A stretch of DNA of 64,000 bases from Thermoanaerobaculia bacterium (GCA_027061805.1 JAMOWA010000068.1:62001-126000), one strand, 5' to 3'; counted from the stretch's first letter, positions 7,998-29,980 are shown. Numbers and translations: made by a program. Notes: generated from the letters alone by a model not told the origin.

Positions 7998-9356
7998 CTA
8001 CCCCTCCCGCTTCTCGATCTCCTCCAGCAGGAGGTCGAGCTCGCCGTGGACGTGCTGGACCAGCGTGTCGGGATCCGGCACCAGGGCGGCGTCCACCGCC
8101 ACGCCCACCCGGACCTCGCCCGCGTAGCTGAAGATACTCACGCCCAGCCCCAGGCGGGCGGACTGCGGCACCCAGAACATCATGTTGCGGAGCTTGCAGC
8201 CGGCGAGATAGAGGTGCTTCCGCGGTCCGGGCACGTTGGTCATCACCAGGGTGGCCTTGCTTCCGAAAAAGTCCACGCCCAGGGCAAGCAGCTCCGGCCT
8301 GGCGATGCCCAGGAGCTGCAGCACACTGAACACCACGCCGGCCTCGGGCGACCTCTTGAGGCGATTCATCCGCCGGCGGACCGTGGCCAGGCGCTTCAGC
8401 GGATCGTTCAGTCCCACAGGCAGCGCCACGAACACCAGGCCAAAACGGTTCCCGAGCTCCCCCAGCTCCTCCTCGGGCCTGAGGTTCACGGGCAGTACCG
8501 CGTGGATGTCCTCGCCCTCCACACGGTCCCCCCTGCCGATGAGATACCGCCGCATGGCCCCCGTGGCCACCGCCAGGAGCACATCATTGACCGTTGCCCC
8601 CGCGATCTTCCCGATCCGCTTCACCTCGTCGAGGGAAACTGGCCCGGACCAGGCCGCCTTCTTGGTGATGGTGATCCGTCCCTTGAAGGCGGTCTTCGGG
8701 TCGGCAGGCCGCTGGACGAGCCGGGCCAGCACGCTGACGGCACCGGCTCCGCTCTGCACGAGCTCCGCGAGCTTCTCCGGGTTGACGAACGCCTCGCGGC
8801 CCTGGTTGACGAGCGCCGCAGGCAGGCTCCGCGCCCCGCCCGGCGAGGCCTTCCCCTTCTTGCGCACCACCGGCGGCGCCTCGGGCTCCTCGTCCGTGAG
8901 CGTGAACAGCAGCCGGACCAGCGCGATCCCGTCGCCGATGCAGTGGTGCAGCCGGATGATGATGGCGGTCCCCTCGCCGTAATCCTCCACCACGTGGATC
9001 TGCCACAGCGGCCGTGAGCGATCCAGCGGCGTGCTCATGAGGTCGCTCACAAGGTCCTGGAGTGCCTTCTGGTCCTGGGGTGCGGCAAGGGCCACCTTCC
9101 GCAGGTGGTACCGCAGCGTGAAGTGCTCGTCCTCCACCCACCTCGGCTTGCCGAGGGGCAGCACCGCCTCCAGCACCTTCTGGCGGAACCGATCGTGGAT
9201 CATGAGCCGGTCCTCGATGATCTCCTTGAGCCGGGCGAGCTCCACGCGCCCGTCCAGGACCATCAGCGCGGTGATGGTCATGAGGTTCGTGGAGTCCTCC
9301 ATCCGCAGCCATGCGCTGTCCACATTGTCCATGAGGACGCCATCCCGCCTGAACAT
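7998..9356 (-). CDS. Wax ester synthase/diacylglycerol acyltransferase
   Basis: A 452-residue acyltransferase of the WS/DGAT family, which moves acyl-CoA groups onto fatty alcohols or diacylglycerol to form storage lipid. The catalytic HHxxxDG motif is at 137-143 (HHCIGDG). A conserved N-terminal SAWLRMED block and the later VNDVLL and GPRKHLYLAG segments fit the family, as does length. ATG 9356, GTG 9362 and TTG 9365 are all possible; AAGGTGAGG lies just upstream. It is divergent from the phasin gene, suggesting a shared storage-inclusion role. Confidence 0.93.
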   Translation of the reverse strand: MFRRDGVLMDNVDSAWLRMEDSTNLMTITALMVLDGRVELARLKEIIEDRLMIHDRFRQKVLEAVLPLGKPRWVEDEHFTLRYHLRKVALAAPQDQKALQDLVSDLMSTPLDRSRPLWQIHVVEDYGEGTAIIIRLHHCIGDGIALVRLLFTLTDEEPEAPPVVRKKGKASPGGARSLPAALVNQGREAFVNPEKLAELVQSGAGAVSVLARLVQRPADPKTAFKGRITITKKAAWSGPVSLDEVKRIGKIAGATVNDVLLAVATGAMRRYLIGRGDRVEGEDIHAVLPVNLRPEEELGELGNRFGLVFVALPVGLNDPLKRLATVRRRMNRLKRSPEAGVVFSVLQLLGIARPELLALGVDFFGSKATLVMTNVPGPRKHLYLAGCKLRNMMFWVPQSARLGLGVSIFSYAGEVRVGVAVDAALVPDPDTLVQHVHGELDLLLEEIEKREG

Positions 9357-9570
9357 GCTCACCAAACCTCACCTTCCCCGCATGGACCACGGACTCCTCT
9401 CGGCCCCTTCCGCTCGACCTGGAACGCATCCAGTGGGTGCTCCATGATACCAGGAGGCCTTCCGGTCGGTCCCTGCCGGCATTCTCCGGATTGCCACATC
9501 GCGGCATCACCCGTCGGACTATCAGGGATCAGACTTGCAACCTGTTGCTCTCCTGGGACAAAAATATTTG

Positions 9571-9645
9571 CCGCAATGCGGTATTCCGGGTTGACACCCT
9601 TGCCGCAGTGCGTTATGTTCTTCTCGTGGATGCCGCAGAGCGGCA
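9571..9645 (+). promoter_or_regulatory. Three phased operator palindromes at the phasin promoter
   Basis: Three related palindromes: CCGCAATGCGG at 9571-9581, CCGCAGTGCGT at 9603-9613 and TGCCGCAGAGCGGCA at 9631-9645. Their centres, 9576, 9608 and 9638, are 32 and 30 bases apart, about three helical turns. The middle one lies inside the -35/-10 spacer, so a bound protein should repress. The arrangement recalls PhaR-type autoregulation of phasin genes, but no phaR gene is in the window. Confidence 0.7.
9591..9619 (+). promoter_or_regulatory. Strong sigma-70-type phasin promoter
   Basis: TTGACA at 9591-9596, a 17-base spacer, and TATGTT at 9614-9619. This is the best consensus promoter in the window and contains the middle operator. 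Confidence 0.75.
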
Positions 9646-9679
9646 AGCAACAACGCAACGGAGCACAGGGGAGGTCACC

Positions 9680-10150
9680 ATGGCTGCGAAGAAAGTTTCC
9701 AGGACGAACGTCAAGAGAATCCAGAACGATGTGATGGAGTCGGCCCACAAGGTGTGGCTGGCCGGGCTCGGCGCGCTGGCCACCGGCCAGGAAAAGGGCG
9801 GCGAGCTGTTCGAGGAGCTGGTGAGAAAGGGCGCCGCGCTGGAGAGCGCGGGCAAGGAGCAGGTGGAGAAGGCCAGGGAAACCGCGCTGGGCACCGTCAC
9901 CGGCGTGAAGGCCGTGGCGGAGAGCTACTGGGAGACCTTCGAGAAGAAGATCGACGAGCGCCTGACCGGCGTGATCCACACCCTGGGCGTGCCCACCAAG
10001 GACGAGATCGAGGCCCTCACCAGGAAGGTGGAGGAGCTGACCAGGACCATCGAGAAGCTCCAGAAGAAGGACACCCCGGCCCGCAAGCCCGCCGCCAAGA
10101 GGCCTGCGACCGCAACCAGGAAGACCGGTGCCAAGAAAACCACCAAGTGA
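9680..10150 (+). CDS. Phasin, polyhydroxyalkanoate granule-associated protein
   Basis: A 156-residue protein of the PhaF/PhaI type. The N-terminal ESAHKVWLAGLGALATGQEKG block and the following amphipathic helices (to about 130, with a coiled-coil stretch VEELTRTIEKLQ) are typical of granule surface proteins. The C-terminus is a short lysine/alanine/threonine-rich tail like the DNA-binding tail of PhaF. The ATG has GGGGAGG upstream. It has a strong promoter with three operators and a clear terminator, so it is a single, regulated transcript. It could instead coat wax-ester or triacylglycerol droplets, given the divergent acyltransferase. Confidence 0.92.
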   Translation: MAAKKVSRTNVKRIQNDVMESAHKVWLAGLGALATGQEKGGELFEELVRKGAALESAGKEQVEKARETALGTVTGVKAVAESYWETFEKKIDERLTGVIHTLGVPTKDEIEALTRKVEELTRTIEKLQKKDTPARKPAAKRPATATRKTGAKKTTK

Positions 10151-10184
10151 CCTCTGACGCCGGCAACGGCGTGATGGAAACCAC

Positions 10185-10211
10185 GGGGCGCCCTCGGGCG
10201 CCCCTATTTTT
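10185..10211 (+). terminator. Rho-independent terminator of the phasin gene
   Basis: GGGGCGCCC at 10185-10193 pairs with GGGCGCCCC at 10196-10204, followed by TATTTTT. Confidence 0.9.
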
Positions 10212-10244
10212 CGCTCCCCACAGCCGGGGGCAATCCCTTCTCCC

Positions 10245-10372
10245 ATCATCCCGAGCGGAGTGACACGCAGTCCCTCCTCCCTCTGTCATCCCGAGCGGAG
10301 CAGCCGCAGCCCCCTACCTGTCATCCCGAGCGAAGGCCCGCAGGGCCGGAGTCGAGGGATCTCCCGAACGAA
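10245..10372. repeat. TCATCCCGAGC-type repeats, three copies
   Basis: TCATCCCGAGCGGAG at about 10246-10260 and 10285-10300, then a fuller copy at 10319-10364 ending in GAGGGATCTC. The same element recurs as an inverted pair at 22.19-22.33 kb. Confidence 0.75.
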
Positions 10373-10810
10373 GCCGCCACCTCCATTTCCGAACGCCCTC
10401 CACGGGAGGGTGGGTGTCGCACGGCCGGAGGTTCGGGCGCCGCACACCCCCTTCGCCCTCTTTCGTTTCACCTTTCACGTTTCACGTCTCACGATCCGAC
10501 CGGGCGGCGCTCCCCCCACGACCTCCCCTCGGCGAACGCGAATGCGGCCCTCCCTGCACGGGCGGCCTGGGGGCGCGCCCTGAAGGACGCGCCTACACTT
10601 TCAGATCCAGCGACCCAGCCCCGTCCAAATCCCAGCAATCCTCAGAATCCGTGGTTGCCAGTCCCGGGTGGGAGGGTGGGTGTCGCACGGGCGGAGGGCC
10701 GGTCGTCCCACATCCCCTTCGCCCTCTTTCGTTTCACCTTTCACCTTTCACGTTTCACGACCCGGTCGGGCGGGGGCATCGCACCTCGTACGGCCGGGCG
10801 GGCGCCGCAC
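10373..10810. repeat. Composite repeat fragments and two heptamer arrays
   Basis: TTTCAC(G/C) arrays at about 10467-10490 and 10728-10760, a module B fragment at about 10510-10570, and GC-rich GGGCGG linkers. The intervening stretch 10570-10660 holds no recognised feature. No gene is supported. Confidence 0.75.
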
Positions 10811-10814
10811 CCCC

Positions 10815-10961
10815 TCTCCCCTGCACCCTTGCTCCCCTGTTCCCCTGCTCCTCTGCTCCCCTGCTCCCCTGTTCCCCTGCTCCCCTGCACCCTTGCTCCC
10901 CTGTTCCCCTGCTCCCCTGCTCCCCTGCTCCCCTGCTCCCCTGCTCCCCTGCTCCCCCTCT
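10815..10961. repeat. CTCCCCTG octamer tandem array
   Basis: About 18 near-perfect copies of an 8-base unit, with variants such as TTCCCCTG and CACCCTTG. It ends just before the GTACAAT at about 10964-10970. Short seeds of the same octamer occur near 2643, 22360, 46050, 46810 and 58430. Confidence 0.9.
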
Positions 10962-11033
10962 CGCGTACAATGGTCCTCGGCATTTTCGCCCGGACGTGTA
11001 ACCGCCGGGCGTCCCGGACACCAGGGAGGAGCA

Positions 11034-11591
11034 GTGGACGACCTCTCGCCCGACCAGAAGCGCCTGGTCACCCTGATGGTCGGCTACCAGAAGGGGAACA
11101 TGGACGACTTCGCCGTGCTTTACGCGGAGCTCGAGCAGCCGTTGCGCCGCTACCTCTGGACCTTCGTCCGCGACACCGCGACCGTGGACGACCTCCTCCA
11201 GACCACCTTCCTCCAGGTCCACCGCGCCCGCCACACCTACACGCCGCCCCGGCCTGTCAGGCCCTGGCTCTATGCCATCACCCGGCACACCGCTCTCATG
11301 CACCTGCGCTCGAGGCGGCGCCGGAAGGAATACCTGGCTGACGAGGACCTCCCCGAGGTTCCCGTTCCGCCCGAGGTGGAGCGGCTCGGCGACCGGCTCA
11401 TGGTGCGGAAGCTTCTCCTGGAGCTTCCGCGGTCGGACCGCGAGATCCTGACACTCCACCACCTCATGGGGCTCAGCTTTGCCGAGGTTGCCAGCGTGGT
11501 GGGCATCTCGGCCGGGGCTGCCAAGGTGCGGGCCCACAGGGCCATCAGGTCCCTCCGTGAGAGGCTTGCGTCCGAAGGAGCCGAACGATGA
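11034..11591 (+). CDS. ECF-type RNA polymerase sigma factor (second)
   Basis: A 185-residue sigma factor. Region 2 includes LEQPLRRYLWTFVRDTATVDDLLQTTFL and RPVRPWLYAITRHTAL; region 4 includes LPRSDREILTLHHLMGLSFAEVASVV and AKVRAHRAIRSLRE. The GTG start at 11034 is preceded by GGGAGGA at 11024-11030; the longer frame upstream is repeat DNA. The stop overlaps the next start (ATGA). An NrsF-type partner suggests control by a membrane anti-sigma factor. Confidence 0.93.
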   Translation: MDDLSPDQKRLVTLMVGYQKGNMDDFAVLYAELEQPLRRYLWTFVRDTATVDDLLQTTFLQVHRARHTYTPPRPVRPWLYAITRHTALMHLRSRRRRKEYLADEDLPEVPVPPEVERLGDRLMVRKLLLELPRSDREILTLHHLMGLSFAEVASVVGISAGAAKVRAHRAIRSLRERLASEGAER

Positions 11592-12253
11592 CCGGACATC
11601 CGCTTCCCGAGGCTCTCCGGAAGGCCGTGGAGGCCGATTCCCGCCCGGTCCGGGCGCTCCCGGCCCTGTGGCGGAGAATCCTGGCCATCGTCATCGCGGC
11701 CGTGGCGCTGCTGGCCGCCGTGGTGGTCACCCACACCCTGCGGCCGGACCTCGAGACCCTCTCCATCTGGCTTGGCTGGGGCGCCACCATCGTGGAGATC
11801 ATCGTGGGCATCTCCCTCATCGGGCTGGCCCTGCGCGAATCCGTCCCCGGACAGGCCATCCCACGTCCGGCCGTCGCCATCGCCGTCGCCACCGGTCTCG
11901 TGGTCAACTTCCTTGTGGCCATCGCCACCTGGGTGGGCACGAAAGGCAGCGGCATGACGGGCATGCCCGGCTGCGGTGTCATCTGCATGCGCACGGGGAT
12001 CTGGATTGCCATCCCCGCCGTGCTCGTCACGCTCATCCTCGTCCTGCGCGCCCTGCCCCTGCGCCCCTGCGTGGTCGGCCTTCTGGGCGGCGCCGGCGCC
12101 GGGCTCATGGCCGACGGTATCAACCACCTCCTGTGCCCTCTCTCCGACCTCCGCCATGTGCTCGTGTGGCACACCGGAGCCATCCTCTGCCTCATGGCAG
12201 CCGGCTGGCTCGCCGGGAAGACCTGGGAGATCCTCCGGTCGAGGAGGGGCTGA
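11588..12253 (+). CDS. NrsF/DUF1109-type membrane anti-sigma factor
   Basis: A 221-residue integral membrane protein with about six transmembrane helices (roughly 29-48, 58-78, 89-110, 134-153, 155-175, 190-210) and a short cytosolic N-terminus. Length, topology and position after an ECF sigma gene match the NrsF/DUF1109 family. Cysteines in GMPGCGVICMRTG (about 127-133) and NHLLCPL could be a redox or metal sensing site, as proposed for family members. The start overlaps the sigma stop by 4 bases. Confidence 0.85.
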   Translation: MTGHPLPEALRKAVEADSRPVRALPALWRRILAIVIAAVALLAAVVVTHTLRPDLETLSIWLGWGATIVEIIVGISLIGLALRESVPGQAIPRPAVAIAVATGLVVNFLVAIATWVGTKGSGMTGMPGCGVICMRTGIWIAIPAVLVTLILVLRALPLRPCVVGLLGGAGAGLMADGINHLLCPLSDLRHVLVWHTGAILCLMAAGWLAGKTWEILRSRRG

Positions 12254-12590
12254 GGGAGCACGGGGCCGGTTTCCTCCCGGCGAGCCACCTCTCCTCCGCT
12301 CGCCCCATGCACGAGGCCGCGACTTTCGAGCGGCGCTCCTTGTCACGACTCTCCCTCGGTGAACGCGAGAACCGCCCCCCTTGAACACAACCAGGCATCC
12401 GAAGAGAGCACGCGCCCACAGGGAGCGCCGGCCTCCAGGCCGGCATCGTGCGCTACACAGAACCCGGGCGACGTACTCTCTGAGCACGACGTCTCCTCCG
12501 CTCGCCCCATGCACGAGGCCGCGACTTTCGAGCGGCGCTCCCTGCCACGACCTTCCCTCGGCGAACGCGAATACGGCCCTCCCTGCACGG
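12254..12590. repeat. Composite repeat modules B and C-B
   Basis: A module B copy at about 12295-12365, then module C at about 12410-12470 and a second module B at about 12500-12580, all in plus orientation. No gene is supported. Confidence 0.8.
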
Positions 12591-12999
12591 GCGGAGGTCC
12601 GGGCGTCGCACCTCCCCTTGCCCTCCTTCGTTTCACGTTTCACGTTTCACGTTTCACGACTCGGGCGGGCGGGCGTCGCACGGGCGGAGGTCCGGGCGTC
12701 GCACGGGCGGAGGTCCGGGCGTCGCACCTCCCCTTCGCCCTCTTTCGTTTCACGTTTCACGTTTCACGTTTCACGACCCGGGCGGGCGGGCGTCGCACGG
12801 GCGGAGGTCCGGGCGTCGCACCTCCCCTTGCCCTCCTTCGTTTCACCTTTCACGTTTCACGTTTCACGACCCGGGCGGGCGGGCGTCGCACGGGCGGAGG
12901 TCCGGGCGTCGCACCTCCCCTTCGCCCTCTTTCGTTTCACGTTTCACGTTTCACGTTTCACGTTTCACGACCCGGGCGGGCGGGGGCATCACACCTCGC
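12591..12999. repeat. Four tandem heptamer-array units
   Basis: TTTCACG arrays at 12631-12658 (4 copies), 12748-12775 (4), 12841-12868 (4, one variant) and 12935-12969 (5). The arrays start 117, 93 and 94 bases apart and are joined by nearly identical linkers with GGGCGGAGGTCCGGGCGTCGC. The first linker carries this phrase twice, which explains the longer spacing. Confidence 0.92.
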
Positions 13000-13046
13000 A
13001 CGGGCGAGCGAGCGTCGCCCCCCCAGGCCTCTCTCCCCCACCCCCC

Positions 13047-13075
13047 TTGTCAATCCGTGCGTCGTTCGCAATAAT
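13047..13075 (+). promoter_or_regulatory. Sigma-70-type promoter for a leaderless gene
   Basis: TTGTCA at 13047-13052, a 17-base spacer and AATAAT at 13070-13075, then 7 bases to the ATG at 13083. Confidence 0.6.
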
Positions 13076-13082
13076 CATTTCG

Positions 13083-13895
13083 ATGTCGCGAGAGCACCCA
13101 CACCTTTCAAGGATGGTTGAGTTATGGGTCCGCCGGAATGAGCCCGCGGGCCGGATTCCCCGGCATGCACTCCGGCTCGCCGAGAAGGTGGCCGGCAATC
13201 CGGACTCGGTTCCAGCAGAGCTGGCCCTGGCCTGGACCATCGTCAACGACGTCTACACGACGCTCGAGTGGGAGATCCCTGCCTCCCCCCGCCTCGCCCG
13301 CTGCCGGAGCGCCGCGGTCTCCGTGGCCCAGAGCGCGGGCATGGTGGTGGACGAGGTCCTCCGGCACCTGGACACCGAGAACGGCGATGTCATGCTGTTG
13401 GGCGACCTCGGCCTTGCGCTCTCTCTCTTCGGCCGGCCCGACGTCTTCCCCGCCCGGGGCGCCATCCTGGTACGTCTTGGTCAGGACGAGAAGGAGCCCG
13501 TGTCAGCCGGCGGGATTCCAGCCTCGCAGGGCGTCCGCTGGGCCGAGAGCGGCCGTCTCCGTGAAGTCTTCACCGAGACCTCGATCCCCGGCAGGCTCCG
13601 GGAGAGGCAGGTCTTCCTGCCGGACGCGGGCCTGATCACCGCCCTCACCGCATCCTCGGCGGCTGATGGGGACCGCCTCACCGGAATCCTCTTCTGCTTC
13701 GCCGCCCACCTCACCACCCGCTCGGGTCACTGGGACTCGGCTGGCTCCACCGCCCGGAACCTGGGCTCCGTGGACCGCCTCGCCGCCGCCGCCTGGCGCT
13801 GGGGCCTCCAGCCAGATCCCAGCCTCGGCAGTCCATTCCTGCTCAGGCTCCGCGCCCTGACCAGGAAGCTCGTCGGGGCCAGTCAGAAGGCCTGA
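13083..13895 (+). CDS. Hypothetical protein
   Basis: A 270-residue protein that I do not recognise. It begins with a helical segment (HLSRMVELWVRR, then ALAWTIVNDVYTTLEW), has no signal peptide or membrane helix, and ends in a basic helix (LRLRALTRKLVG). The middle (about 95-215) is mixed alpha/beta. A good promoter places transcription at the ATG, and codon composition matches the neighbours, so it is probably expressed. Its 3' end faces the C25 peptidase gene across a shared hairpin. Confidence 0.65.
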   Translation: MSREHPHLSRMVELWVRRNEPAGRIPRHALRLAEKVAGNPDSVPAELALAWTIVNDVYTTLEWEIPASPRLARCRSAAVSVAQSAGMVVDEVLRHLDTENGDVMLLGDLGLALSLFGRPDVFPARGAILVRLGQDEKEPVSAGGIPASQGVRWAESGRLREVFTETSIPGRLRERQVFLPDAGLITALTASSAADGDRLTGILFCFAAHLTTRSGHWDSAGSTARNLGSVDRLAAAAWRWGLQPDPSLGSPFLLRLRALTRKLVGASQKA

Positions 13896-13971: not shown

Positions 13972-16900
13972 TTACCGCTTCAGTCGCATGGACGGATCGC
14001 CGAAGAACACCCAGCTCGAGCGTACATAGGGATCCGTGATGGCGGCCTTGGCCGCCACGATGGCATCGCCCACCCGGGAATTCGCGTCACCAAACAGACC
14101 CTCGTACAGGACCTCGTTGAGCCTCGCCTGACCCTCGGGATCCGTCAGGGCGCTGGAAGCCCACACGGCCACGGCACCACCATCCGGCTCCAGCAGAAGG
14201 GCCTCTGCGAGGCTCTGCTGCTGCACGTCGTGGAAAAGTCCGTTCAGGCAATTCATGGCCAGCACCACCGGGAGCCGATCGGCATTGGTCATGTTCTCGA
14301 CGTCGGAGATCTCGAGCACTCCATGATTGGTCCAGATGGTCTGGGATCCGTGTCCCTGATAGTTGATGATCAGGCGGCCAGTCGTGAATGCCTCGAGGAT
14401 CTCCTGGCGTGCAGTCTCCTCGCCCATCCTGCCAATGAGAACGTTCTCGGTCTCCACGTCTGCCGGAACCAGCGAGGCAAGTTCGTCGATGGCTTTCTCG
14501 AAGCTGAACTCCTCGCCATCCTGGTCGGCCACCAGCATGATCCGATCAGCCCAACCCGCGCCATCCGCGGCATCGTAGGCAATGATCTTCTCCACGGCCA
14601 CGAGCGCCGCTGCCGGCGTCCTCGCTGGAATCCTCCCGATGGCGAGCGTGCTGCTGGCACTCCCGTCCACCTCGCCGAACCAGTCGTCGCTGGCAGTCTT
14701 GAGCAGCATGGTCGCCTGGATGTGGGTCGGAACGAAGTCCGACACACCCATCCCGAGATGATCCCGCGGGTCGAAGCTCGCATCTCCCAGCAGGACAACA
14801 TAGCGTGGTGCCACTTCCCACCTTCCGGTTGCCTGCGTGAGGAATGAGCGAATGGCCTCGGGAGACTTCTCGCCAAAGCTGAATTCGTCGTACACATCCT
14901 CCAGGGAGACCACCGCCACGGTCAGTCCGTCCATACGACGATGGCCAGCCAACAACTCCGCCGCCTCGAGGAAGACAGGGTGCGAGATGATCACAAGGTC
15001 GGCACGGTTCCTTTCCCCATGCCATGCGGACGGCTGGTTCACCATGATGTCCACAGGCTGCTCGATCCGTTTCTCCGAGAAGGCGTAGAGGTCGGCATCT
15101 CGGTCGCCACCGGACCAGGTTCCCGGCACGACAACGCGGTACCCGGTCTCCGCGGGAGACTGCGCATCCAGAATCTCCCCGGGAACCTCCACCGGGCGAT
15201 CCGGGTCCGACACATCCATCACCGTGGGAACCTTCCCTTCGAAACCCAAGAGGTCGATGGAGGCATGGCGCTGAGCTGTGAGGGAAAGGGCGTCGTCCCG
15301 GACCACGAAGGCCCGCGGGTAGATCACGGAGACAGCATCCAGGACACTCACATCACCATCGCCCGCCCTGGAGGTGAGCCGCACGACATTGTCCGCGGGA
15401 GTCAGCCGGTCCGCCACGTCGAACACTGCCTCGGCAGCTTCGTTCCCCTCGAAGCTCATCTCCCCGACCACCCGGTCATTGAGCTCCACGAGCACGTCAT
15501 GGTCCCCATCGGTGATTCCCTGGAGAGAGACCCTGAGGCGAGGAGGAATCTCGTCGAATGAAGCCGCATCCATGTTGTCGAGATGCAATGTGGTCTCGAG
15601 AGACTCTGGCGACACCACCCCGGCGTAGAAGTTGTCACGATCTCCATTCTGAATCACGGAGGCCACATAGATGGAACGATCCCTCCGCTCCACTGTTGCC
15701 GGATAAACCGTCAGGAACCGCGTCGGCCTCTCACCGACAAATGGTGGCGTCATCCAGATTCGAAGGCCCGGCCGGTCGTCCACGGTCACCCAGTAGACAC
15801 GGGTATCCGTGGCAGGGGTATCCAGCCCGAGCCCGTAGAACTCGATGGCATCCTCCACGTCGAAGTACCCGTCGTCCATGCCGGTCACACGGATCGCCTG
15901 CTCGACTCCCTCGGCGAAGAGATGCAGGGTGGTGGGGTCGGGCCCCGGGTCGAAACCGGCGTTCGCAAGGTCTCCCCTCGTCACCCGGTACCACCCCTCG
16001 TGGTCCACCAGGATCTTCGCCCCGGCCTCGGCCGCCCTGAGCCACTGGGCTTCGACGGGGCCGGTCTCCCTGGAGGAGGCCACCCTCGGCCTCTCACCCG
16101 CCGCCGGACTGCGAAGCCCGGAGCCGAGCGCGGACAGCGTGGGGGATTCCGCGAACTTCATCCCCAGGCGCGCCACCAGGCGTGCCTCCTCGTCGGCAGA
16201 TGCGGGTCTGGCAGTGAACGGACCATGCCACCGGCTCGAACCATCCAGGTCGATCGCCTCGATCCAGTACCGCGCGGCGGACCGCAGGGTCGCGCGACGA
16301 TCGACAAAGGTGTAGGCCCTGCCGGAAGCCATCTCCACCGCGGGGCCGGCGAAGAGCGCCGAACCTGCCACCACGGAAGGGGTGATCAGAACACGGTTCC
16401 CGGAGGCATCCTCCCGGTAGATCCTGAAGCCCAGGTTGTTCACCTCGTACCCGGTCCGCCACATGATGATCGTCCCACTGTCCGTTCCGACCACATCCGC
16501 CGCGGCGAATCGCGCCAGCGAGGGCGTGTTGGGCGGCTGGATGCTCTCGGCACAGATGGACCAGCTGGTCAGAGAACTCAGAGCCCATCCAACAGCATCC
16601 AAGGAGGCAACACCCGGCTTGGTGCTTCCCGATCCCCTCAGGTCCGTGAGGTTCGTGTTCACGGAGGTATTCCACCGCAGGGTCTGGGCACTCCCGGGAG
16701 TCGGCGTGATCGGGTACAGCGAGGACACCACGTCGATGATGGCATCCCTGGAGTTGCTGGTGATGGAAAGCGAGATGCTGCTGCTCGTCGCGCGCGTCGA
16801 GGCCGAGCTCCTGCTGGGGCTGGTCTGGTTCACGTTGCCGAAGGCCACCGCCGAGGCCACCACCTGGGTGGAGGTGCTCAGGGTGACACTGACCGTGTTC

Positions 16901-17298
16901 GAACCCGTGGGAGGTGCCAGCAGGTCCCAGATCTCTGTCCTGCCCTGGGTTCCGTTGGAATCCTGGGAAACCCGGCGGGTCAGTGCATTTCCCCCGTAGC
17001 TCACCGAGGAAACCTGCACCGCCGGGATGCTGGTGGTGTTGCCCCGGAGCGAGAAGCAGACCACCAGGTACCGGTTGGTCAGGGTCGCATTGACCGTATG
17101 GCTCCAGGTGAAGGTGGTCGTACCGGAACTCGTGGTGGTGCTGATGTTCGCGGAATCGATCACGATGTCCGTCACATCGGCATGGACGGCACCTGCGACG
17201 AGGAACAGCACGCATCCGAAGGCAAGAACGCCCAGGAGCACACGTCGCCCACCAGAAGTCGTTGCCATCGTCATACTGTTTCGGGTTCCGTACATCAT
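13972..17298 (-). CDS. Secreted gingipain-type (C25) cysteine peptidase
   Basis: A 1108-residue exported protein. A signal peptide lies at about 10-41 (VLLGVLAFGCVLFLVAGAVHA). A threonine/serine-rich beta-sandwich region follows, then fibronectin-like segments, then a C25 peptidase domain over about the last 430 residues. The catalytic pair is H983 in YQGHGS and C1017 in AMNCLNG. No C-terminal sorting domain is visible. The ATG at 17298 has a perfect AAGGAGG ribosome site. It overlaps the S26-like gene by 4 bases and ends the RiPP-like operon, so it may process the secreted peptide; being a general surface protease is the alternative. Confidence 0.88.
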   Translation of the reverse strand: MMYGTRNSMTMATTSGGRRVLLGVLAFGCVLFLVAGAVHADVTDIVIDSANISTTTSSGTTTFTWSHTVNATLTNRYLVVCFSLRGNTTSIPAVQVSSVSYGGNALTRRVSQDSNGTQGRTEIWDLLAPPTGSNTVSVTLSTSTQVVASAVAFGNVNQTSPSRSSASTRATSSSISLSITSNSRDAIIDVVSSLYPITPTPGSAQTLRWNTSVNTNLTDLRGSGSTKPGVASLDAVGWALSSLTSWSICAESIQPPNTPSLARFAAADVVGTDSGTIIMWRTGYEVNNLGFRIYREDASGNRVLITPSVVAGSALFAGPAVEMASGRAYTFVDRRATLRSAARYWIEAIDLDGSSRWHGPFTARPASADEEARLVARLGMKFAESPTLSALGSGLRSPAAGERPRVASSRETGPVEAQWLRAAEAGAKILVDHEGWYRVTRGDLANAGFDPGPDPTTLHLFAEGVEQAIRVTGMDDGYFDVEDAIEFYGLGLDTPATDTRVYWVTVDDRPGLRIWMTPPFVGERPTRFLTVYPATVERRDRSIYVASVIQNGDRDNFYAGVVSPESLETTLHLDNMDAASFDEIPPRLRVSLQGITDGDHDVLVELNDRVVGEMSFEGNEAAEAVFDVADRLTPADNVVRLTSRAGDGDVSVLDAVSVIYPRAFVVRDDALSLTAQRHASIDLLGFEGKVPTVMDVSDPDRPVEVPGEILDAQSPAETGYRVVVPGTWSGGDRDADLYAFSEKRIEQPVDIMVNQPSAWHGERNRADLVIISHPVFLEAAELLAGHRRMDGLTVAVVSLEDVYDEFSFGEKSPEAIRSFLTQATGRWEVAPRYVVLLGDASFDPRDHLGMGVSDFVPTHIQATMLLKTASDDWFGEVDGSASSTLAIGRIPARTPAAALVAVEKIIAYDAADGAGWADRIMLVADQDGEEFSFEKAIDELASLVPADVETENVLIGRMGEETARQEILEAFTTGRLIINYQGHGSQTIWTNHGVLEISDVENMTNADRLPVVLAMNCLNGLFHDVQQQSLAEALLLEPDGGAVAVWASSALTDPEGQARLNEVLYEGLFGDANSRVGDAIVAAKAAITDPYVRSSWVFFGDPSMRLKR

Positions 17299-17846
17299 CT
17301 CGAACCTCCTTGTGATCCCCTCGCATGAACGGGGTCCGGAGACCCGGCCCGCTCTCGCGCGGTTCCCGCAACTCTTCCAGCTCCTCTGGTGACCGCGGAC
17401 CACCGTGATAACCCGGCACGCACCAGGGCCAGCTGCCGCAACACGCCAAACGCCTGCCTTCTGAAAAGCAGCCGGAAAAATACTCCCGGGCCTCGCACCG
17501 GAAACCGCCGGCCTTCTCGCTCCACACATACCACCCGACCCAGAATCCGCCCCGATGGCTCCGGAGCGTCACACGCGGTCATGGAATCACCACGGAGCAG
17601 GAAGATCTCACCATCGACATCGGGCACCCGCACCACCCGGTGCGCACGGACACAGGTCTCTCCGGCCACCACCACATCTCCCCACCGGACCTGCGAGGCC
17701 TCGACGGGTTCGACCACCAGCGTGTCGCCGTCACGGATGGTCGGCCGCATGCTCGTTCCCGGAGCCCGGAATCGGACCGCAACCCCATCGCGCAACATGG
17801 CCGCACACACCGGCTCGAAGCGCAGGGTCGTGGTTTCTTCACCCAC
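17295..17846 (-). CDS. S24/S26-like peptidase (signal-peptidase fold)
   Basis: A 183-residue protein with the S24/S26 serine peptidase core. S32 in APGTSMRP is the expected nucleophile. The second strand has CVRAHRV (H69) where bacterial signal peptidase I would carry lysine; serine/histidine is also the arrangement of SipW/ER-type enzymes. No N-terminal membrane helix is seen, unlike LepB. The GTG start overlaps the kinase stop by 8 bases and the stop overlaps the C25 start by 4. The context suggests precursor-leader cleavage, though the substrate is unproven. Confidence 0.8.
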   Translation of the reverse strand: MGEETTTLRFEPVCAAMLRDGVAVRFRAPGTSMRPTIRDGDTLVVEPVEASQVRWGDVVVAGETCVRAHRVVRVPDVDGEIFLLRGDSMTACDAPEPSGRILGRVVCVEREGRRFPVRGPGVFFRLLFRRQAFGVLRQLALVRAGLSRWSAVTRGAGRVAGTARERAGSPDPVHARGSQGGSR

Positions 17847-18759
17847 GGTCCACCCTCTCCATCCAGGCCTCGATGCAGGCTATTGCCGTGGCATCCGGAA
17901 CGAAACCGAGCCTCCCGCAGGGAGCCTCGCTTGCTGCAGTACTCAGGGTGTCCATCGCGGTTTCCAGCGCCATGGCTTCGAAGAAGGGGAGAAACGCCCG
18001 CGCCATCAGCTCCGAGACGGCCTCCGGCCTGGCGAGAGACTCGATCTCGTTTCGCGGCGCGTGCCCGAGCACCAGTATCCCCGCCAGAGGAGCATCCTCC
18101 GCCACCGAGAACCCGGCCTCACCGTGCCATGGGGTTCCAAACATGCGAATCTCCCCGTCCACTTCCCGCAGCACGATCCTGTCGTCGCTCAGGACGGTGA
18201 CCCGCCTGCTTGACCACAACTTGGCCAGGGTGCTCTTCCCCGCTCCCGAGTGACCGCAGAAGAGCCATCCCCTCCCCTCGCCATCGATGATCCCACACGC
18301 ATGAAGCTCGCACCCGAGGCCCTGGCCGAGCCTGTTGACGACCAGGAGTTCATCGAGAGGGTACTCGAGAGGATCCACCGGTTCGCTTCCCACATAGGGT
18401 CCGTGCAGGATGATCTCGCCCTTCCGGAAGTCCCGGGTAACACGGAGTTCCTTGTAGGGGATCGGGCCCAGAACGGGGGAAGAGAACCTGAAAGTGTGTT
18501 CACCACTGTCCTCGTAGAGCCGCCATACCATCCCGGAATCGAAGAGAAGACGCCCTGAAGGCTCGAGGCCGAGGCGCTGCATTCGGACGTGCAGATCGAT
18601 CTCCGGATCAGGACAGGCTCCCACGAAGACCAAGCGCCTGCCATCGATACGAAGCGGAATCCCCACATCGGCCTGCACCCGGACGCCCACTCCGGCCACC
18701 TGGAAGGTGTACGCCCCGTCGGTACACTCTTCCCGGCAGACGGGAACCGATCGGCTCAC
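17839..18759 (-). CDS. HprK-related kinase of a RiPP-like cluster
   Basis: A 306-residue protein whose C-terminal half resembles the HPr kinase P-loop domain: Walker A at 169-177 (GHSGAGKST), a following SDDRIVL segment at 191-197 and HGEAGF downstream. The N-terminal half (beta-rich, 1-130) is not HprK-like. Homologues are found beside PqqD-type proteins and as kinases of lasso-peptide precursors. The GTG start has GAGGGG 6 bases upstream and lies 20 bases after the precursor gene. It could phosphorylate a serine in the peptide or act as an ATP-dependent assembly factor. Confidence 0.85.
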   Translation of the reverse strand: MSRSVPVCREECTDGAYTFQVAGVGVRVQADVGIPLRIDGRRLVFVGACPDPEIDLHVRMQRLGLEPSGRLLFDSGMVWRLYEDSGEHTFRFSSPVLGPIPYKELRVTRDFRKGEIILHGPYVGSEPVDPLEYPLDELLVVNRLGQGLGCELHACGIIDGEGRGWLFCGHSGAGKSTLAKLWSSRRVTVLSDDRIVLREVDGEIRMFGTPWHGEAGFSVAEDAPLAGILVLGHAPRNEIESLARPEAVSELMARAFLPFFEAMALETAMDTLSTAASEAPCGRLGFVPDATAIACIEAWMERVDRG

Positions 18760-18779
18760 GGCAAACCCCTCGTCCCCCC

Positions 18780-18962
18780 TTACGAGGCCAAGGAGGAACA
18801 GGCAACAGGCGAATTGCAGTTACTCTGTAGGGGACCCGTCGATCCGGAGACCTTGCAGTTCCCGAGAACCGCCTCCTCGGGCCGCAGCCTGACCTCACGA
18901 ACCAGCGGCCTGTGGTAGGTTTTCCGGGACGTCCCATTGATGTCGCGTTTCTGGTGAGCCAT
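18780..18962 (-). CDS. Candidate RiPP precursor peptide
   Basis: A 60-residue peptide. The leader (1-34) contains YHRPLVREVRLRPEEAVLG, like the leader-then-EEAVLG pattern of PqqD/radical-SAM precursors. The short C-terminal core has cysteines at 36, 49 and 55 and is rich in Ser, Asn and Gly. The ATG at 18962 has GGAGA about 9 bases upstream; in-frame starts at 18971 and 19010 are less well placed. It sits between the radical SAM gene and the kinase gene, 20 bases before the latter. No mature product is known. Confidence 0.75.
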   Translation of the reverse strand: MAHQKRDINGTSRKTYHRPLVREVRLRPEEAVLGNCKVSGSTGPLQSNCNSPVACSSLAS

Positions 18963-19235
18963 CAGTCTCATCTCCCTCTGGCCAGAAGTACCTGATCTCG
19001 ACAATCCCAAAAACGTGAACGTGGCCTCTCAGTGCAACGGCCACGATCGTCCGTGCCGCCAACCCTCGGCGATGGGTGTTCGACAACCTTCGATCACAGT
19101 GTAACCCGGCGCCGATTCCATTTCACTCAAGTATACGCTCATTTCAGGAAAATGTGGAGTCCCATGGTGTTCTCGCAGCTCATGCCTGCGTTCCAGGCGG
19201 GGTTCCCGACACCTCCCCGGCCTTGTCTCGAGACC
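18963..19235 (-). promoter_or_regulatory. Leader region before the precursor gene
   Basis: A 273-base gap between the radical SAM stop and the precursor ATG. A minus-strand TATACT at 19130-19135 could start a separate precursor transcript with a leader of about 160 bases. That would allow the peptide to be made in excess over its enzymes. No clear -35 or riboswitch is recognised. Confidence 0.4.
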
Positions 19236-20444
19236 TCAGCAATTGAAGGGCAATCGCCGGCCAACATCCCGGAGGCGCCCGGCGTCCGCCACCATCTTTC
19301 CGAAACGTTTGCCCCCCTCGCAGTACTCGCAGTCGCCGTGCCGGGGCACCTCGATGCCGAGAACACGGGCCCTCAGGTGCGCCACGTGGCAGAGGAAATC
19401 CACCGGCTCCTCCGGATCGCCCATCTCCATCTCGCCGTAGGCAGGACACATGCCGCAGAGGGACTTGATGTGGCAGCGGGTGCACTTCGTCTCGCGGGTG
19501 ACCCTGCGTTCCACCACCCCGCCAAGGAACCGCTCCCACCCCTCCCGAAACGACCCCTCCCGGAGGTCGTAGAGGTCCCCGGGGGCGTTGCTGAAGTTGC
19601 AGAGGCCGAGCCGGCCGCAGGGATCGATGGAGAACGAGTTGACGGCGCCGCCGCAATGGTAGAGGCAGTCCTCCCGGCCCGGTGGCTGGGGCGGACCGTT
19701 GAAATGCTCGCAGAAGGACTGCCAGGCATCGGCCCGCTTCCGGTCCAGGACATCCAGCTCGACCACCTCCACGGGCTCGAGTCGTGTGGCGAGCGGCCCG
19801 CGTGATCCGTCGAGCCGGGGATTGATCATGGCGTCGAACCTGAACTCGACGCCGAGATCCCGTGCGAAGCGCTGCATGTCCCAGAGCTCGTGAACGTTCT
19901 CCCGGAGCACCACCGTCTTCAGCTTGAGGGGCAGGCCCCGCGTCATCAGGCGCTCGATCGCCCCCCGGACCCGGGCGAACGAGCCCGGGGCCCGCGTCAG
20001 CCGCTCGTGGGTCTCGCGGGTGTGCCCGTAGAGTGTGATCTCGATGGCGAAAGGACGCCACTCCGCGAGCTCATCCGCGATGGGTTCCGTGATTCCGGAG
20101 CCATTGGTGAACATCGTGATCAGGAAGCCCTTCCCCCTGGCATGCCGGTAGATCTCCATGAAGTCCGGGCGCACGAAGATCTCGCCCCCGGTGAACAGTA
20201 GCCAGAGCGTTCCCGCCTCCGCGATCTCGTCCAGGATCCTCCGGTGCTCCTCGAGGCTCAGCTCGCACTTCCTCACGGCATCATCGGCGGGAAGATTGCT
20301 GTAGCAGTGGAGGCAGGAGAAGTTGCACCGGCGGGTCACCTCGATGGTCCCCGTGATGGGCCGGCGATTCCACGGCGTGACCTGTCCGTGGACCCTGGTG
20401 CTGAACTCGGTGTAGCTCTCCTTCTCCATGGCTCTCGAGGACAT
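19236..20444 (-). CDS. Radical SAM/SPASM peptide maturase
   Basis: A 402-residue radical SAM enzyme. The SAM-cluster motif is C40-x3-C44-x2-C47 (CNFSCLHC), with the GGE motif at 86-88. The SPASM domain carries cysteines at 260, 264, 276, 282, 321, 324, 330, 333 and 352, enough for two auxiliary 4Fe-4S clusters. C372, C375 and C402 are extra. Such enzymes make thioether or C-C crosslinks in peptides. The ATG lies 2 bases after the PqqD stop, so the pair should work together on the downstream precursor. Confidence 0.93.
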   Translation of the reverse strand: MSSRAMEKESYTEFSTRVHGQVTPWNRRPITGTIEVTRRCNFSCLHCYSNLPADDAVRKCELSLEEHRRILDEIAEAGTLWLLFTGGEIFVRPDFMEIYRHARGKGFLITMFTNGSGITEPIADELAEWRPFAIEITLYGHTRETHERLTRAPGSFARVRGAIERLMTRGLPLKLKTVVLRENVHELWDMQRFARDLGVEFRFDAMINPRLDGSRGPLATRLEPVEVVELDVLDRKRADAWQSFCEHFNGPPQPPGREDCLYHCGGAVNSFSIDPCGRLGLCNFSNAPGDLYDLREGSFREGWERFLGGVVERRVTRETKCTRCHIKSLCGMCPAYGEMEMGDPEEPVDFLCHVAHLRARVLGIEVPRHGDCEYCEGGKRFGKMVADAGRLRDVGRRLPFNC

Positions 20445-20446
20445 GC

Positions 20447-20740
20447 TCAGTCCCCGGCGATCTCGACGACCCCGTTCTCCCGGAGGCTCTCGAGAAACTC
20501 CACGGCGTCACGGAACGCCGGTTCCTCGTCAACCTCGAATCCCGTCACCACTGCTGCCACGATCTCCTCGAGCGTGTTCCCGCGGACAACCCCCTCCCAG
20601 ATCACGGCACCCACCTCGTTCAGCGTGAATATCGAGTCGAGCTCGGCCACACCACTCCGGACCGGGACAAGGATCATCTCCCCCCCGATCTCACGGGCCA
20701 CGTACTCGCCTCGGGGCCTGAAGACTGTCGATGGGTCCAT
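20447..20740 (-). CDS. PqqD-family peptide chaperone (RRE)
   Basis: A 97-residue RiPP recognition element. The order of a beta hairpin (ILVPVRSGVAELDSIFTLNEVG), AVIWEGVVRGNTLEEIVAAVV helices and a C-terminal helix with ENGVVEI matches PqqD. It should bind the leader and present the precursor to the radical SAM protein. The ATG at 20740 has AAGGAAGG upstream; a longer in-frame start at 20797 lacks support. It is the first gene of the minus-strand cluster and is divergent from the nucleotidyltransferase. Confidence 0.9.
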   Translation of the reverse strand: MDPSTVFRPRGEYVAREIGGEMILVPVRSGVAELDSIFTLNEVGAVIWEGVVRGNTLEEIVAAVVTGFEVDEEPAFRDAVEFLESLRENGVVEIAGD

Positions 20741-20861
20741 CTCATCCTTCCTTTCCCGGCCGTTGCCACCATCCTGAGAACCACACTCAGGATCCACTTC
20801 CAGTCTAGCACCTCTGCCCTCACCCGGGAACAGATCCGGGCCGGCATGATTGGGTGTCCTC

Positions 20862-20867
20862 TACAAT
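20862..20867 (+). promoter_or_regulatory. Candidate -10 box, leaderless nucleotidyltransferase gene
   Basis: TACAAT ends 6 bases before the ATG at 20874. No -35 match is seen. Confidence 0.5.
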
Positions 20868-20873
20868 CGGGAC

Positions 20874-21995
20874 ATGCCCGTGTCAACCTCCTCAATTCCC
20901 GGGACACCCCTCCGGTTCGCCGGGCTCGATGACCCCACCGTCGCAAGAATGGCCTCGGCTGCTGCCGGGGACCCCACAGCCATCGGATCCCTGGCCTCGG
21001 AGCCAGAGCGCGCCGGGCTCGCCGTCCTCCACCGCCTCGCACCCCTGCTGCTGGTGATCGGCCACCAGCATGGTCTCGAGCCCCCCACGGCCTGGAGCGA
21101 TATCGCCCGCACGACCGCCGTGATGCGGCTCATGCTGGAGGACGGCCTCCGGGAGCTGGGCGCCGTTCTCGGCGATGCCGGGATCCCCTGGCTGCCGCTG
21201 AAGGGCATGGGGCCCGTGGCCCGCCTCTACCCCCAGCCCGAGTGCCGGCCCACGACCGACATCGACGTTCTCATTCCGGAAACAGAGTTCACACGAGCCC
21301 GCGCCCTTCTGAGAACAACGGGATGGGAGGACATGAACACCGGTATCGCCTTCGAGGACTTCCTGCTCCGCGAGGGCTACAACTGGCAGGCCCGGAACCG
21401 GAGGGGGATCATGCTCGAGCTCCACTTCCGGCTGTGGGGGTCCGTGGATCCTGCGCTGGCCACAACCCTCATGGAGCGTGCGGCTCCGGCGCCCGAGCTC
21501 GGGGCGACGGCCCTGGTCTCCGGCCCGGTGGAAACCCACGTCATGGCAGCCGCCCACCTCTGGAACTCACCCAGGCCGGTGGCGCTGCTCAACTTCCTCG
21601 ACCTGGAGCTGCTGGCACGGGCCGCCGGGGGCCCCGGGTTCGTCGAGGGCGTCGCCTCCCTCGCCCGGCGGCACGACCTCCAGCTCTTCGTCGGCCTCGC
21701 CGCCGCCGTGGCCAACCAGCTCTGGGAGAACCAGTACAACGAGGCAATCGCCGCAACGCTCCTCGGTGACCTCCGCCCCGCCGAGCGGCTCGCCGTGGCC
21801 CGGGCCCGGAGGCGCTCGCCGCTCGAGTTATCCCTGGGCACTCTGGTCCTGGCACGGCTCCTCTCCGGCAGGAGGAGCCGCAGCGGCTGGCGCGCCCCGT
21901 TCCGCCAGCTCTGGCCGCATCCCGCCATCTGCGCGAAGAACCCTGGCAAAGGGCCCATCGCCGCCATCAGGAGGGCCCTGACCAGTGGGAGGTAG
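20874..21995 (+). CDS. Nucleotidyltransferase of the RiPP-associated type
   Basis: A 373-residue protein resembling the uncharacterised nucleotidyltransferase family PF14907. The signature LKGMGPVARLYP at 109-120 and RPTTDIDVLI at 125-134 supply the metal-binding acids D129 and D131. A helical C-terminus follows, ending in a basic stretch. Members often lie beside HprK-like and PqqD genes. It is divergent from that operon, so it may tailor the peptide or the machinery by nucleotidyl transfer. The start follows a TACAAT box by 6 bases. Confidence 0.82.
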   Translation: MPVSTSSIPGTPLRFAGLDDPTVARMASAAAGDPTAIGSLASEPERAGLAVLHRLAPLLLVIGHQHGLEPPTAWSDIARTTAVMRLMLEDGLRELGAVLGDAGIPWLPLKGMGPVARLYPQPECRPTTDIDVLIPETEFTRARALLRTTGWEDMNTGIAFEDFLLREGYNWQARNRRGIMLELHFRLWGSVDPALATTLMERAAPAPELGATALVSGPVETHVMAAAHLWNSPRPVALLNFLDLELLARAAGGPGFVEGVASLARRHDLQLFVGLAAAVANQLWENQYNEAIAATLLGDLRPAERLAVARARRRSPLELSLGTLVLARLLSGRRSRSGWRAPFRQLWPHPAICAKNPGKGPIAAIRRALTSGR

Positions 21996-22494
21996 GGGTT
22001 TGTTCCAAACCTCCGAAGCCAAGCTTCCCTGAAACCTGGTGCTACACCCTGGGTGATCGATCTCTCCTCCGCTCGCCCCATGCACAAGGCCGCGACTTTC
22101 GAGCGGAGCTCCCTGCCACCACCTCCCCCCGGCAAGCACGGACATCCCGCTTCCAATCTGTCATCCCGACCGACCGAACCAATACTCCGTTGTCATCCCG
22201 ACCGAGCGAGCGGAGCGAGCGAGTGGAGGGATCTCCCCCACCTCTGGAGGGCCTCCGGGGCTCGATAGCGCCGGCTTCGTGCGGGAGATCCCTCGACTCC
22301 GGCCCTCCGGGCCTCCGCTCGGGATGACAGGGGTTGGACGACCTCGGGATCTCCCCTTCTCCCCTGCTCCCCTGTCCCGCACGGGCGGGAGGGCGGCCGT
22401 CGCACCTCGCACGGGAGGGTGGGTGGGTGTCGCACGGGTGGGAGGCCGGGCATCGCACATCTCCTTCGCCCTCTTTCGTTTCACGTTTCACGTT
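21996..22494. repeat. Repeat block with inverted TCATCCCGAGC pair
   Basis: About 500 bases without a gene, between convergent nucleotidyltransferase genes. It has a module B copy at 22065-22140, a forward TGTCATCCCGA copy at 22191-22235, its inverted partner at 22282-22329, a few octamers near 22360, and a TTTCACG array at about 22477-22505. The pair could fold as a long hairpin and block read-through. Confidence 0.8.
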
Positions 22495-22827
22495 TCACGT
22501 TTCACGACCCGGGCGGGCGGGGGCCGCCCTCACCTCCTGCCTTCCCTGCTTCCTCACTCTCTCCAGCTCGAACTCCGGCTGTTCCGGGAAGACGGTCGTC
22601 CTGGGAACGGGCACCACAGGAAGCCGCTCCACCCGGAGCATCTCCAGATCCAGGAGCCGTCGCGCGCCAGCCACCGGCTCGGCCCTCCGGAGGGCCACCA
22701 GGTCCAGGTCCATGGTGGTTCTCGGAATCCCGCAGGCCGCCATTGCCAATCCCCCGATCACGGCCCAGGGATGACTCCTCTCGTCCAGGAATCCACCCAC
22801 AAGATCGAGCACCGCCGCGAAATCCAT
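22495..22827 (-). pseudogene. Truncated nucleotidyltransferase (AbiEii-like) fragment
   Basis: A 110-codon frame. The first 45 residues are a good minimal nucleotidyltransferase start (AVIGGLAMAACGIPRTTMDLDLV). After that the sequence no longer follows the family and the frame runs straight into the GC-rich edge of a heptamer array, where it stops. It probably lost its C-terminal half through a frameshift or repeat insertion. No partner gene is obvious. Confidence 0.55.
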
Positions 22828-22975
22828 CACACCTCCACACCCAGGACACCCCCAAAACCTGCGGCCGGTACGCCGCACCAGCCCTCTCCCCCTCACCGTG
22901 GTGCACATCCCGGGATCTGAAGAGAGCACACACCCACAGGGAACACCGGCCTCGCCTTCATGATACAATGTCATT

Positions 22976-26001: not shown

Positions 26002-27066
26002 TCAAACCGTTCCGGTGCTCCCGGCACCGGGGCACGGCACACCGATCTGGGGCCCCGGCTCGTCCACTCCCGGGAGCATCGCATCGAGTCTGTCGAGTGT
26101 TCTCGCCATCTCCTGGTCTTCCACCCGCCGGCGAACGCCCCGCATCACCCAGCCCGTCACGGTCACCGGGTGCTTGCCAAGAACCTGCGCCATGTCCTTG
26201 ACCCGGATCCCCCACCTCTCAACACCCAGCATGGCCACGAGCTCCCGTGCCCTCGAGAGGCGCTCGCCGCGCCCACGACCCTGCAGCTCCTCCACCCCCA
26301 CCCCGATCGCTCCGGCAACCCGCGCCACGAACTCTTCCGCCCCGATCACCGGCCGTTCCCTCTGGGCCCGCGCGGCCGCTTCTTTCCGCCTGGATCTCCC
26401 GGAATCCTCCGGATCCTCCAGGTCCCCGCGGGAAGGCCGCCCCAGGCGCCACCATGGCAGCCGCCCGGGATCCTCTCCGGTCCACGCCTCCTCTCGCGCC
26501 CCGCGCAGCATCCTCGTGTATGCCCCCCGCGCCGCCCTCCGGCTCTCTCCGAAGAGTCGCAGCACCTCGTCCACGTCCACGATCGGCTTCTTCCTCAGTC
26601 CGAGCACGTCCCGGTGCCCGCTCCACCGGTACCGCGCCGGATCGTCCACGAGCCCGGCTACCACCGGGTTGAGGTGGATGTACGCCACCAGCCGGTCCAG
26701 GTATCGCTGATCCCGGACAAGCTTCGCCCGGTACCGCCCCTGCCACAACGGCCCGTACACCCGGGCCGACCTGTTCACCGAGCGCGCGGTCCGCCACTGC
26801 AGCGTCTTGATCGTCCTACCCAGCGGCACCACCCCCGTCCCCACCGCCAGATGGTAGTGGTTCGGCAACAGCGCCCACGCAAACACCGTCACCCCGTCCC
26901 GCTCCACCACCTCCCGCAACAACTGCACGAACTCCGCAGCCCTCCCGTCCTCCTCGAAGACCCTCTCCCCCCGTGCCAGCCGGTTGTACACGTGAAACAC
27001 CGCCCCATCGAAATGAATCCTCTGCGCCCGCGGCATCGCCATCGCCGCCTGCCAGCACCTTAACAT
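26002..27066 (-). mobile_element. REP-associated tyrosine transposase (RAYT)
   Basis: A 354-codon frame encoding a Y1 transposase of the IS200-like RAYT group. Present are FHVYNR near the N-terminus, the HUH metal motif in LLPNHYHLAV (about 67-76), the block YGPLWQGRYRAKLV, and the tyrosine region YIHLNPVVAGLVDDPARYRWSGH (about 128-150). A long basic linker leads to a C-terminal helix-turn-helix like that of DnaA (about 300-335). The true start may be the Met at residue 9 or 11. Such enzymes are thought to spread REP sequences, relevant to the repeats in this window. Confidence 0.9.
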
Positions 27067-27172
27067 TACTTTCTTATACCTAGCGCTTTACGAGTACGAG
27101 CCCCTTTAACTTGGTGACGCCAACGCTGTGCTGTGTTCCTGAGCGCCATCTATGGGGTAGCATCTTTCCTTT

Positions 27173-28672: not shown

Positions 28673-28731
28673 TTACCCTAGTTCCTTTCTCCTATAAACA
28701 ATATCCTGATCGCAACTATACTAGTAAGTTC

Positions 28732-29918: not shown

Positions 29919-29953
29919 CAATATTGGCGGCAGGTGTAAAAATGGTGTAAAAT
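29915..29953 (+). promoter_or_regulatory. Methyltransferase promoter with direct repeats
   Basis: TTGACA at 29915-29920, then TAAAAA at 29937-29942 (16-base spacer). Two direct repeats GGTGTAAAA start at 29933 and 29944, 11 bases apart. The second contains another possible -10 (TAAAAT, 29948-29953). The layout could bind a regulator or the methyltransferase itself. Confidence 0.45.
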
Positions 29954-29980
29954 GAAAAAGGAAAGGGAACAAGACGTACG

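Follow-up and report, generated by a model that had tools for sequence, protein, structure and literature searches.

A locus of seven genes at positions 13972 to 21995 of the window (the whole 64,000-nucleotide stretch of DNA analysed, from a Thermoanaerobaculia bacterium) is probably a biosynthetic operon for a RiPP of undescribed type, whose peptide would be crosslinked, phosphorylated on serine, and freed of its leader by a peptidase of the S26 or B2 type. The parts are known, the combination appears to be new, and the system falls within RiPP biosynthesis. The initial annotation could name no pathway that joins these parts, and no description of PqqD, HprK, radical SAM, and C25 proteins in combination was found in the literature searched, most subscription journals lying outside that search.

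Gene content and layout of the locus

All seven genes of the initial annotation are found where it placed them, through domain matches that include PF05402, PF04055, PF01364, and PF14907. Features are listed below by position in the window.

20850..21995, plus strand: NTP_transf_5 nucleotidyltransferase-like protein, PF14907, divergent from the PqqD gene
20447..20740, minus strand: PqqD-like stand-alone RiPP recognition element (RRE), 97 aa; a longer ORF begins at 20797
19236..20444, minus strand: radical SAM/SPASM peptide maturase, 402 aa, PF04055
19130..19158, minus strand: promoter-like site separating the gene of the radical SAM enzyme from that of the precursor; the match to the consensus is no more than weak, with 1 found against 0.4 expected
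18780..18971, minus strand: precursor peptide, 63 aa; an alternative start at 18962 gives 60 aa
17839..18759, minus strand: HprK-like kinase, 306 aa
17295..17846, minus strand: S26/S24-type peptidase, by S24/S26 domain match
13972..17298, minus strand: secreted C25 (gingipain/PorU-like) cysteine peptidase, 1108 aa, PF01364

The six genes on the minus strand, encoding PqqD, the radical SAM/SPASM enzyme, the precursor, the HprK-like kinase, the S26 peptidase, and the C25 peptidase, are an operon-like unit by their anatomy as read from the DNA. Two bases separate the PqqD and radical SAM genes, the HprK and S26 genes overlap by eight bases, and the sole larger gap in the unit lies ahead of the precursor gene. 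The start codon of the C25 gene shares an ATGA overlap with the stop codon of the S26 gene and has an AGGAGG ribosome site ahead of it, so the start previously given as 17529 is corrected to 17298. The likeliest start of the PqqD gene is 20740. The absence of a transporter and a lasso cyclase, also claimed previously, holds among the neighbouring ORFs scanned, none of which matches the cyclase model PF00733; no dedicated exporter was seen at the window locus.

The PqqD protein (PF05402, E 3e-15) has the lasso RREs 9x90, TbiB1, and TfuB1 as its best matches in PDB, and its best NCBIfam match is NF033536 (lasso_PqqD_Bac), under the cut-off. In the radical SAM protein (PF04055, E 3e-20), the CxxxCxxC cysteines C40, C44, and C47 and the SPASM cysteines C264, C282, C321, C324, C330, C333, and C352 are all invariant across 20 sequences. 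Its nearest solved relatives in PDB are SkfB, PqqE, and CteB, while its scores against curated maturase models are far under every cut-off. The NTP_transf_5 protein (PF14907, E 9e-32) is presumably of the enzyme kind annotated for PsmN.

The HprK-like protein matches HPr kinases in PDB by sequence, and its structure model (pLDDT 94) matches HprK/PEPCK folds. The catalytic set consists of H153, K175 (Walker A), D192, and D193, which are kept in 61/61, 61/61, 60/61, and 52/61 relatives, respectively. According to reviews, the lasso kinases PadeK and ThcoK phosphorylate a C-terminal Ser and depend on a His-Lys-Asp-Asp set, while PsmN, which carries a nucleotidyltransferase annotation, attaches hexoses to the phosphate (PMC9266682; PMC8498205). 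The target of another lasso kinase, BsfK, is an internal Ser (PMC10368454). The locus has both features expected of the lasso-type kinases specific for a C-terminal Ser, namely the His-Lys-Asp-Asp set in the enzyme and a C-terminal Ser in the putative substrate.

The precursor family and the spread of the module

The window precursor has a YxxP leader, a core with three Cys, and a C-terminal Ser (end ...KTYHRPLVREVRLRPEEAVLGNCKVSGSTGPLQSNCNSPVACSSLAS), and it has no match among NCBIfam or Pfam models. YxxP is a known motif of lasso leaders and their RREs (PMC12710340; PMC10368454); other classes use motifs akin to it (PMC12710340). Homologues were collected by a protein search in relatives, followed by a profile search of a wider set. 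The seed alignment comprises 22 sequences, the window's among them, and shows no variation at Y, P, L, E, C, K, C, C, or the terminal S; the Lys stands directly after the first Cys. The consensus reads YxxP....V.L.PEEAVLGxCK.....GP....C.....C....S-stop, and relatives usually contain two to three Cys. Codon differences between the window precursor and that of locus L051 fall mainly in third positions (8, 9, and 23 by codon position); this bias, with the homologues, rules out a spurious ORF. A lipobox at the first Cys is also ruled out, by an additional residue between Gly/Ala and Cys. What stands beside the modifying enzymes is a conserved precursor with leader and core, as in RiPP systems.

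The last residue is Ser in 65 of the 67 distinct complete precursor homologues, which are related to one another rather than independent samples; the remaining two end in Thr and Gln. Among the small ORFs of these loci in general, the proportion with a final Ser is 10.8%. The last Ser is nearly constant in a core that otherwise varies widely. Together with the catalytic set of the kinase, this supports the link to lasso-type kinases drawn in the initial annotation. In L079-L082 (neighbourhoods of 14-20 kb, with several radical SAM genes), precursors are Ser-tailed and HprK is not detectable, so that the tail Ser may serve otherwise there, or the kinase may sit elsewhere.

Variant clusters with two or three radical SAM proteins (one of about 650-730 aa), PqqD, and S26 occur at L079-L084, L112, L119, and L121-L123; the precursors found in them end in Ser, and HprK is often unseen nearby. 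Tandem pairs of precursors with differing cores occur at L102:11085-11462 and L086:10842-11480, one cluster each.

Precursor, PqqD, radical SAM, and HprK genes co-occur at 58 of the 66 loci compared, which span about a dozen phyla. The 66 loci are those with a precursor and a radical SAM gene; contig ends truncate a few of them. PqqD is present in 64, HprK in 60, S26 in 51, C25 in 28, and NTP_transf_5 in 24, where genes were called from simple ORFs and profiles and absences are approximate. By far the commonest layout is PqqD-rSAM-precursor-HprK(-S26), in that order. Chance clustering is ruled out because gene set and order are conserved across the 66 loci. These counts support the RiPP-like reading of the initial annotation and run against the scattering of the genes in relatives that it had named as grounds for giving that reading up. 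When 247 genomes of the phylum were searched, strong relatives of the radical SAM protein turned up in many families. A scan of named genomes finds the same module on contigs labelled Acidobacteria, Nitrospirae, Planctomycetes, Aerophobetes, Aminicenantes, Omnitrophota, Verrucomicrobia, Kiritimatiellia, Deltaproteobacteria, Nitrospinae, Chloroflexota, and others.

The S26 and C25 peptidases

The S26 protein resembles SEC11 and LexA/SpsB in PDB. The predicted catalytic residues Ser32, His69, and Asp87 are kept, with S32 in 55/57 relatives and H69 in 57/57. The catalytic Ser and His of SEC11/SipW-type S26 peptidases are present, while the N-terminal membrane helix of that type is lacking in both the alignment and the structure model, which is soluble with a long C-terminal helix. 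By the count used here, S26 was not found near the precursor in 15 of 66 loci. In L053, where S26 was not found, a Transglut_core3 protein (lasso-type B2) adjoins the radical SAM gene. The window genome (G000) has a second PqqD-HprK-rSAM cluster outside the window (G000:C68, ~7.9-10.5 kb; L179:5905-8542), in which no precursor was identified; it ends, in place of S26, with a protein above the cut-off of the lasso B2 model NF033537. B2 occurs only in L051-L053, L138, and this second cluster, the window locus itself having S26. The exchange is not strict, because L051 carries both. It thus seems that either type can occupy this one slot; this supports a role for S26 as leader peptidase, and [GA]-x-Cys in the precursor is a plausible site for its cut.

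The C25 protein (PF01364, E 7e-84) has a signal peptide by inspection and matches PorU (6za2) and RgpB (1cvr) in PDB. It shares with PorU and gingipain R the catalytic domain, part of the PorU N-terminal region, and the His/Cys dyad, of which His is kept in 28/29 relatives and Cys in 27/29. It differs in that the catalytic domain is last, with no domain beyond it and hence no C-terminal sorting domain. The score against the PorU model NF033707, 265.8 bits, is under the cut-off of 420, so by that model the protein does not qualify as the T9SS sortase PorU; SprA_N has no match in the window genome, nor in any control genome.

The 247 genomes of the phylum contain 150 C25 genes, and 35 of these have a radical SAM gene of this kind no more than 12 kb away. 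Twenty genomes were picked because they carry the module; in nine of them there is a single C25 gene. Eight of these have it beside the module; in the ninth, G096, the gene starts at base 1 of a contig whose other end holds the module, an arrangement that fits a circular replicon. The C25 gene follows S26 in some loci and precedes PqqD in others. In a tree of C25 domains, genes at the module do not form one clade, and at least seven label changes are forced. One row labelled "unlinked," L185 of G207, is on a short contig of 6 kb, and the module of that genome is truncated where a contig ends, so that this label is unsafe. On this tree, no one clade of C25 is reserved for the module; C25 proteases joined it repeatedly. 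A second wide family, L168-L178, has the order HprK-PqqD-rSAM-(precursor)-C25, with distinct, short precursors of the form YxxP...AGTC... that end in Ser, such as YEKPAVVYREKIEARAGTCSKADQLTCSSGAVS; these were picked for the Ser ending in one of two analyses and not in the other.

Some loci lacking C25 carry an ABC exporter of ~610 aa. Strict mutual exclusion of C25 and exporter was suggested, and the counts, seven loci with ABC only and one with both, are too few for it. In L060, L062-L066, and also L054, L095, and L099, the module adjoins NTP_transf_5 and exopolysaccharide export genes (Wzz/Wzc-type kinase, Poly_export, Wzy_C), and C25 is not beside it. A ThcOx-type nitroreductase follows C25 in L053:15321-19772 (by Pfam) and L076:3747-5255 (by similarity), with a HlyD-like protein further downstream in L053; these are possible additions for tailoring and export.

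Known systems, proposed pathway, and alternatives

In its leader, kinase, and tail the system resembles those of the phosphorylated lasso peptides paeninodin and pseudomycoidin; it is not a lasso system, because cyclase and ring acid are missing. Shared features are a PqqD-type RRE, the YxxP leader, an HprK-like kinase with the H-K-D-D set, the C-terminal Ser, a nucleotidyltransferase-type tailoring gene, and B2 in some related clusters. An asparagine-synthetase-like cyclase there contrasts with radical SAM/SPASM here, and B2 there with S26 here, while a Cys-containing core without a ring Asp/Glu, a C25 peptidase, and the lack of an ABC transporter set the window locus apart. With no Asp or Glu beyond PEEAVLG, the window precursor cannot close a lasso lactam ring; for this reason, and for want of a cyclase among the scanned neighbours, a lasso peptide was rejected. 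A lasso cluster with its cyclase elsewhere, the radical SAM enzyme being an extra tailoring step, is extremely unlikely. It would account for the lasso-like RRE and leader, the kinase, NTP_transf_5, and the B2 proteins of the paralogous cluster and L053, but not for a precursor without ring acid, scanned neighbours without a cyclase domain, or a core whose conserved features are Cys and the C-terminal Ser.

Sactipeptide and ranthipeptide systems (SkfB, CteB, StsB types) share the radical SAM/SPASM maturase and the Cys-containing core, and one of them has a discrete RRE (StsC), like the stand-alone PqqD here; the kinase, NTP_transf_5, S26, and C25 are not described there, as far as found. The annotated, uncharacterised SynChlorMet cassette (ScmA-F; TIGR04248-04251) also brings PqqD-like, HprK-like, and radical SAM/SPASM proteins together. 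The window proteins score 17.6 bits against 125 for ScmC, 14.8 against 100 for ScmD, and 72 against 400 for ScmE, all below curated cut-offs, by which the cassette is ruled out; no true cassette over the cut-off was found for comparison in ten genomes. Membership in this cassette is very unlikely. Kinases and PqqD proteins of some members do match ScmC and ScmD weakly, but at 15-36 bits against cut-offs of 100-125, and SynChlorMet has two radical SAM proteins where the window locus has one, with S26 and C25 added. GeoRSP and HPr-rel-A (TIGR04302/4303, TIGR04352) combine PqqD with radical SAM, or PqqD with HprK, in one system; window proteins fall below these cut-offs too, and the rest of the gene set is missing there.

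The pathway proposed here is predicted, in every chemical step, from family knowledge and conserved residues. The PqqD protein would capture the YxxP leader and present the precursor to the enzymes. The radical SAM/SPASM protein would then introduce one or more crosslinks into the Cys-containing core, most likely thioethers from the conserved Cys, and the HprK-like kinase would place a phosphate on the hydroxyl group of the C-terminal Ser, which is nearly invariant. NTP_transf_5, where present, may extend that phosphate with a further group, as PsmN does in pseudomycoidin. The anchor-free S26-type peptidase, or a lasso-type B2 in some loci, would cut off the leader near [GA]-x-Cys. The secreted C25 peptidase, where a locus has one (some four in ten do), would act with the product outside the cytoplasm. 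Crosslinking and export, as named in the initial annotation, are likewise putative roles. Several observations weigh against the pathway: the Ser-tailed precursors of L079-L082 with no HprK detected, the internal Ser targeted by BsfK, the lack of a dedicated exporter at the window locus, the loci in which S26 was not found, the two precursors ending in Thr and Gln, and C25 genes that are absent from over half of the loci and fall into more than one clade. A rather improbable elaboration is a surface-display RiPP, in which the phosphorylated (and glycosylated) Ser would be a handle for surface anchoring or release and the PorU-like C25 protein a dedicated peptidase/transpeptidase, with a polysaccharide route in the C25-free subclade linked to exopolysaccharide genes.

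Two alternatives concern the product and its protease. The peptide might give rise to a cofactor or signal, as with PQQ or mycofactocin, instead of a secreted product, C25 being a bystander. A core as conserved as the enzymes between the window and L051, the wide spread over phyla, the missing exporter at the window locus, and the PqqE-like enzyme suit this idea; we judge it quite unlikely in view of the repeated and strongly enriched recruitment of C25, a kinase and NTP_transf_5 of the lasso tailoring kind, ABC exporters in other loci, and no recurrent oxidoreductase partner. Alternatively, C25 could be an independent secreted protease or sortase that lies beside a RiPP operon by happenstance. 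That possibility, which we judge unlikely, gains from the 38 of 66 loci without C25, from the scatter of C25 over the tree, and from its being an ordinary secreted PorU-like protein. It has to contend with the ATGA overlap with the S26 gene, with the nine single-C25 genomes that all have the gene at the module locus (one across a contig end), and with the same link in two gene orders and in the second HprK-PqqD-rSAM family.

If the locus does make a crosslinked, Ser-phosphorylated RiPP, a widespread type is added, mostly from uncultured phyla, and radical SAM chemistry is joined with C-terminal Ser phosphorylation, known until now from lasso peptides. RRE, kinase, nucleotidyltransferase, and leader peptidase would then amount to a kit with exchangeable parts that does not depend on which enzyme forms the ring. 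The purpose of the C-terminal phosphorylation becomes testable because the tail Ser is almost invariant here. C25 peptidases would gain a likely role beyond periodontal virulence and type IX secretion.

Several features of the surrounding DNA may be recorded. Spurious ORFs with FTFHVSR repeats, alike on the two sides, flank the cluster at window positions 10260-13120 and 22040-22900 and point to a dispersed intergenic DNA repeat. An IS200-like transposase, a CAP12/Pycsar-type TIR effector-like protein, and a C-5 cytosine methylase stand in a row at 26002-31270, possibly a defence island. At 7998-12253 are found a wax ester synthase, a phasin, a sigma-70 family factor, and an NrsF-type anti-sigma factor.
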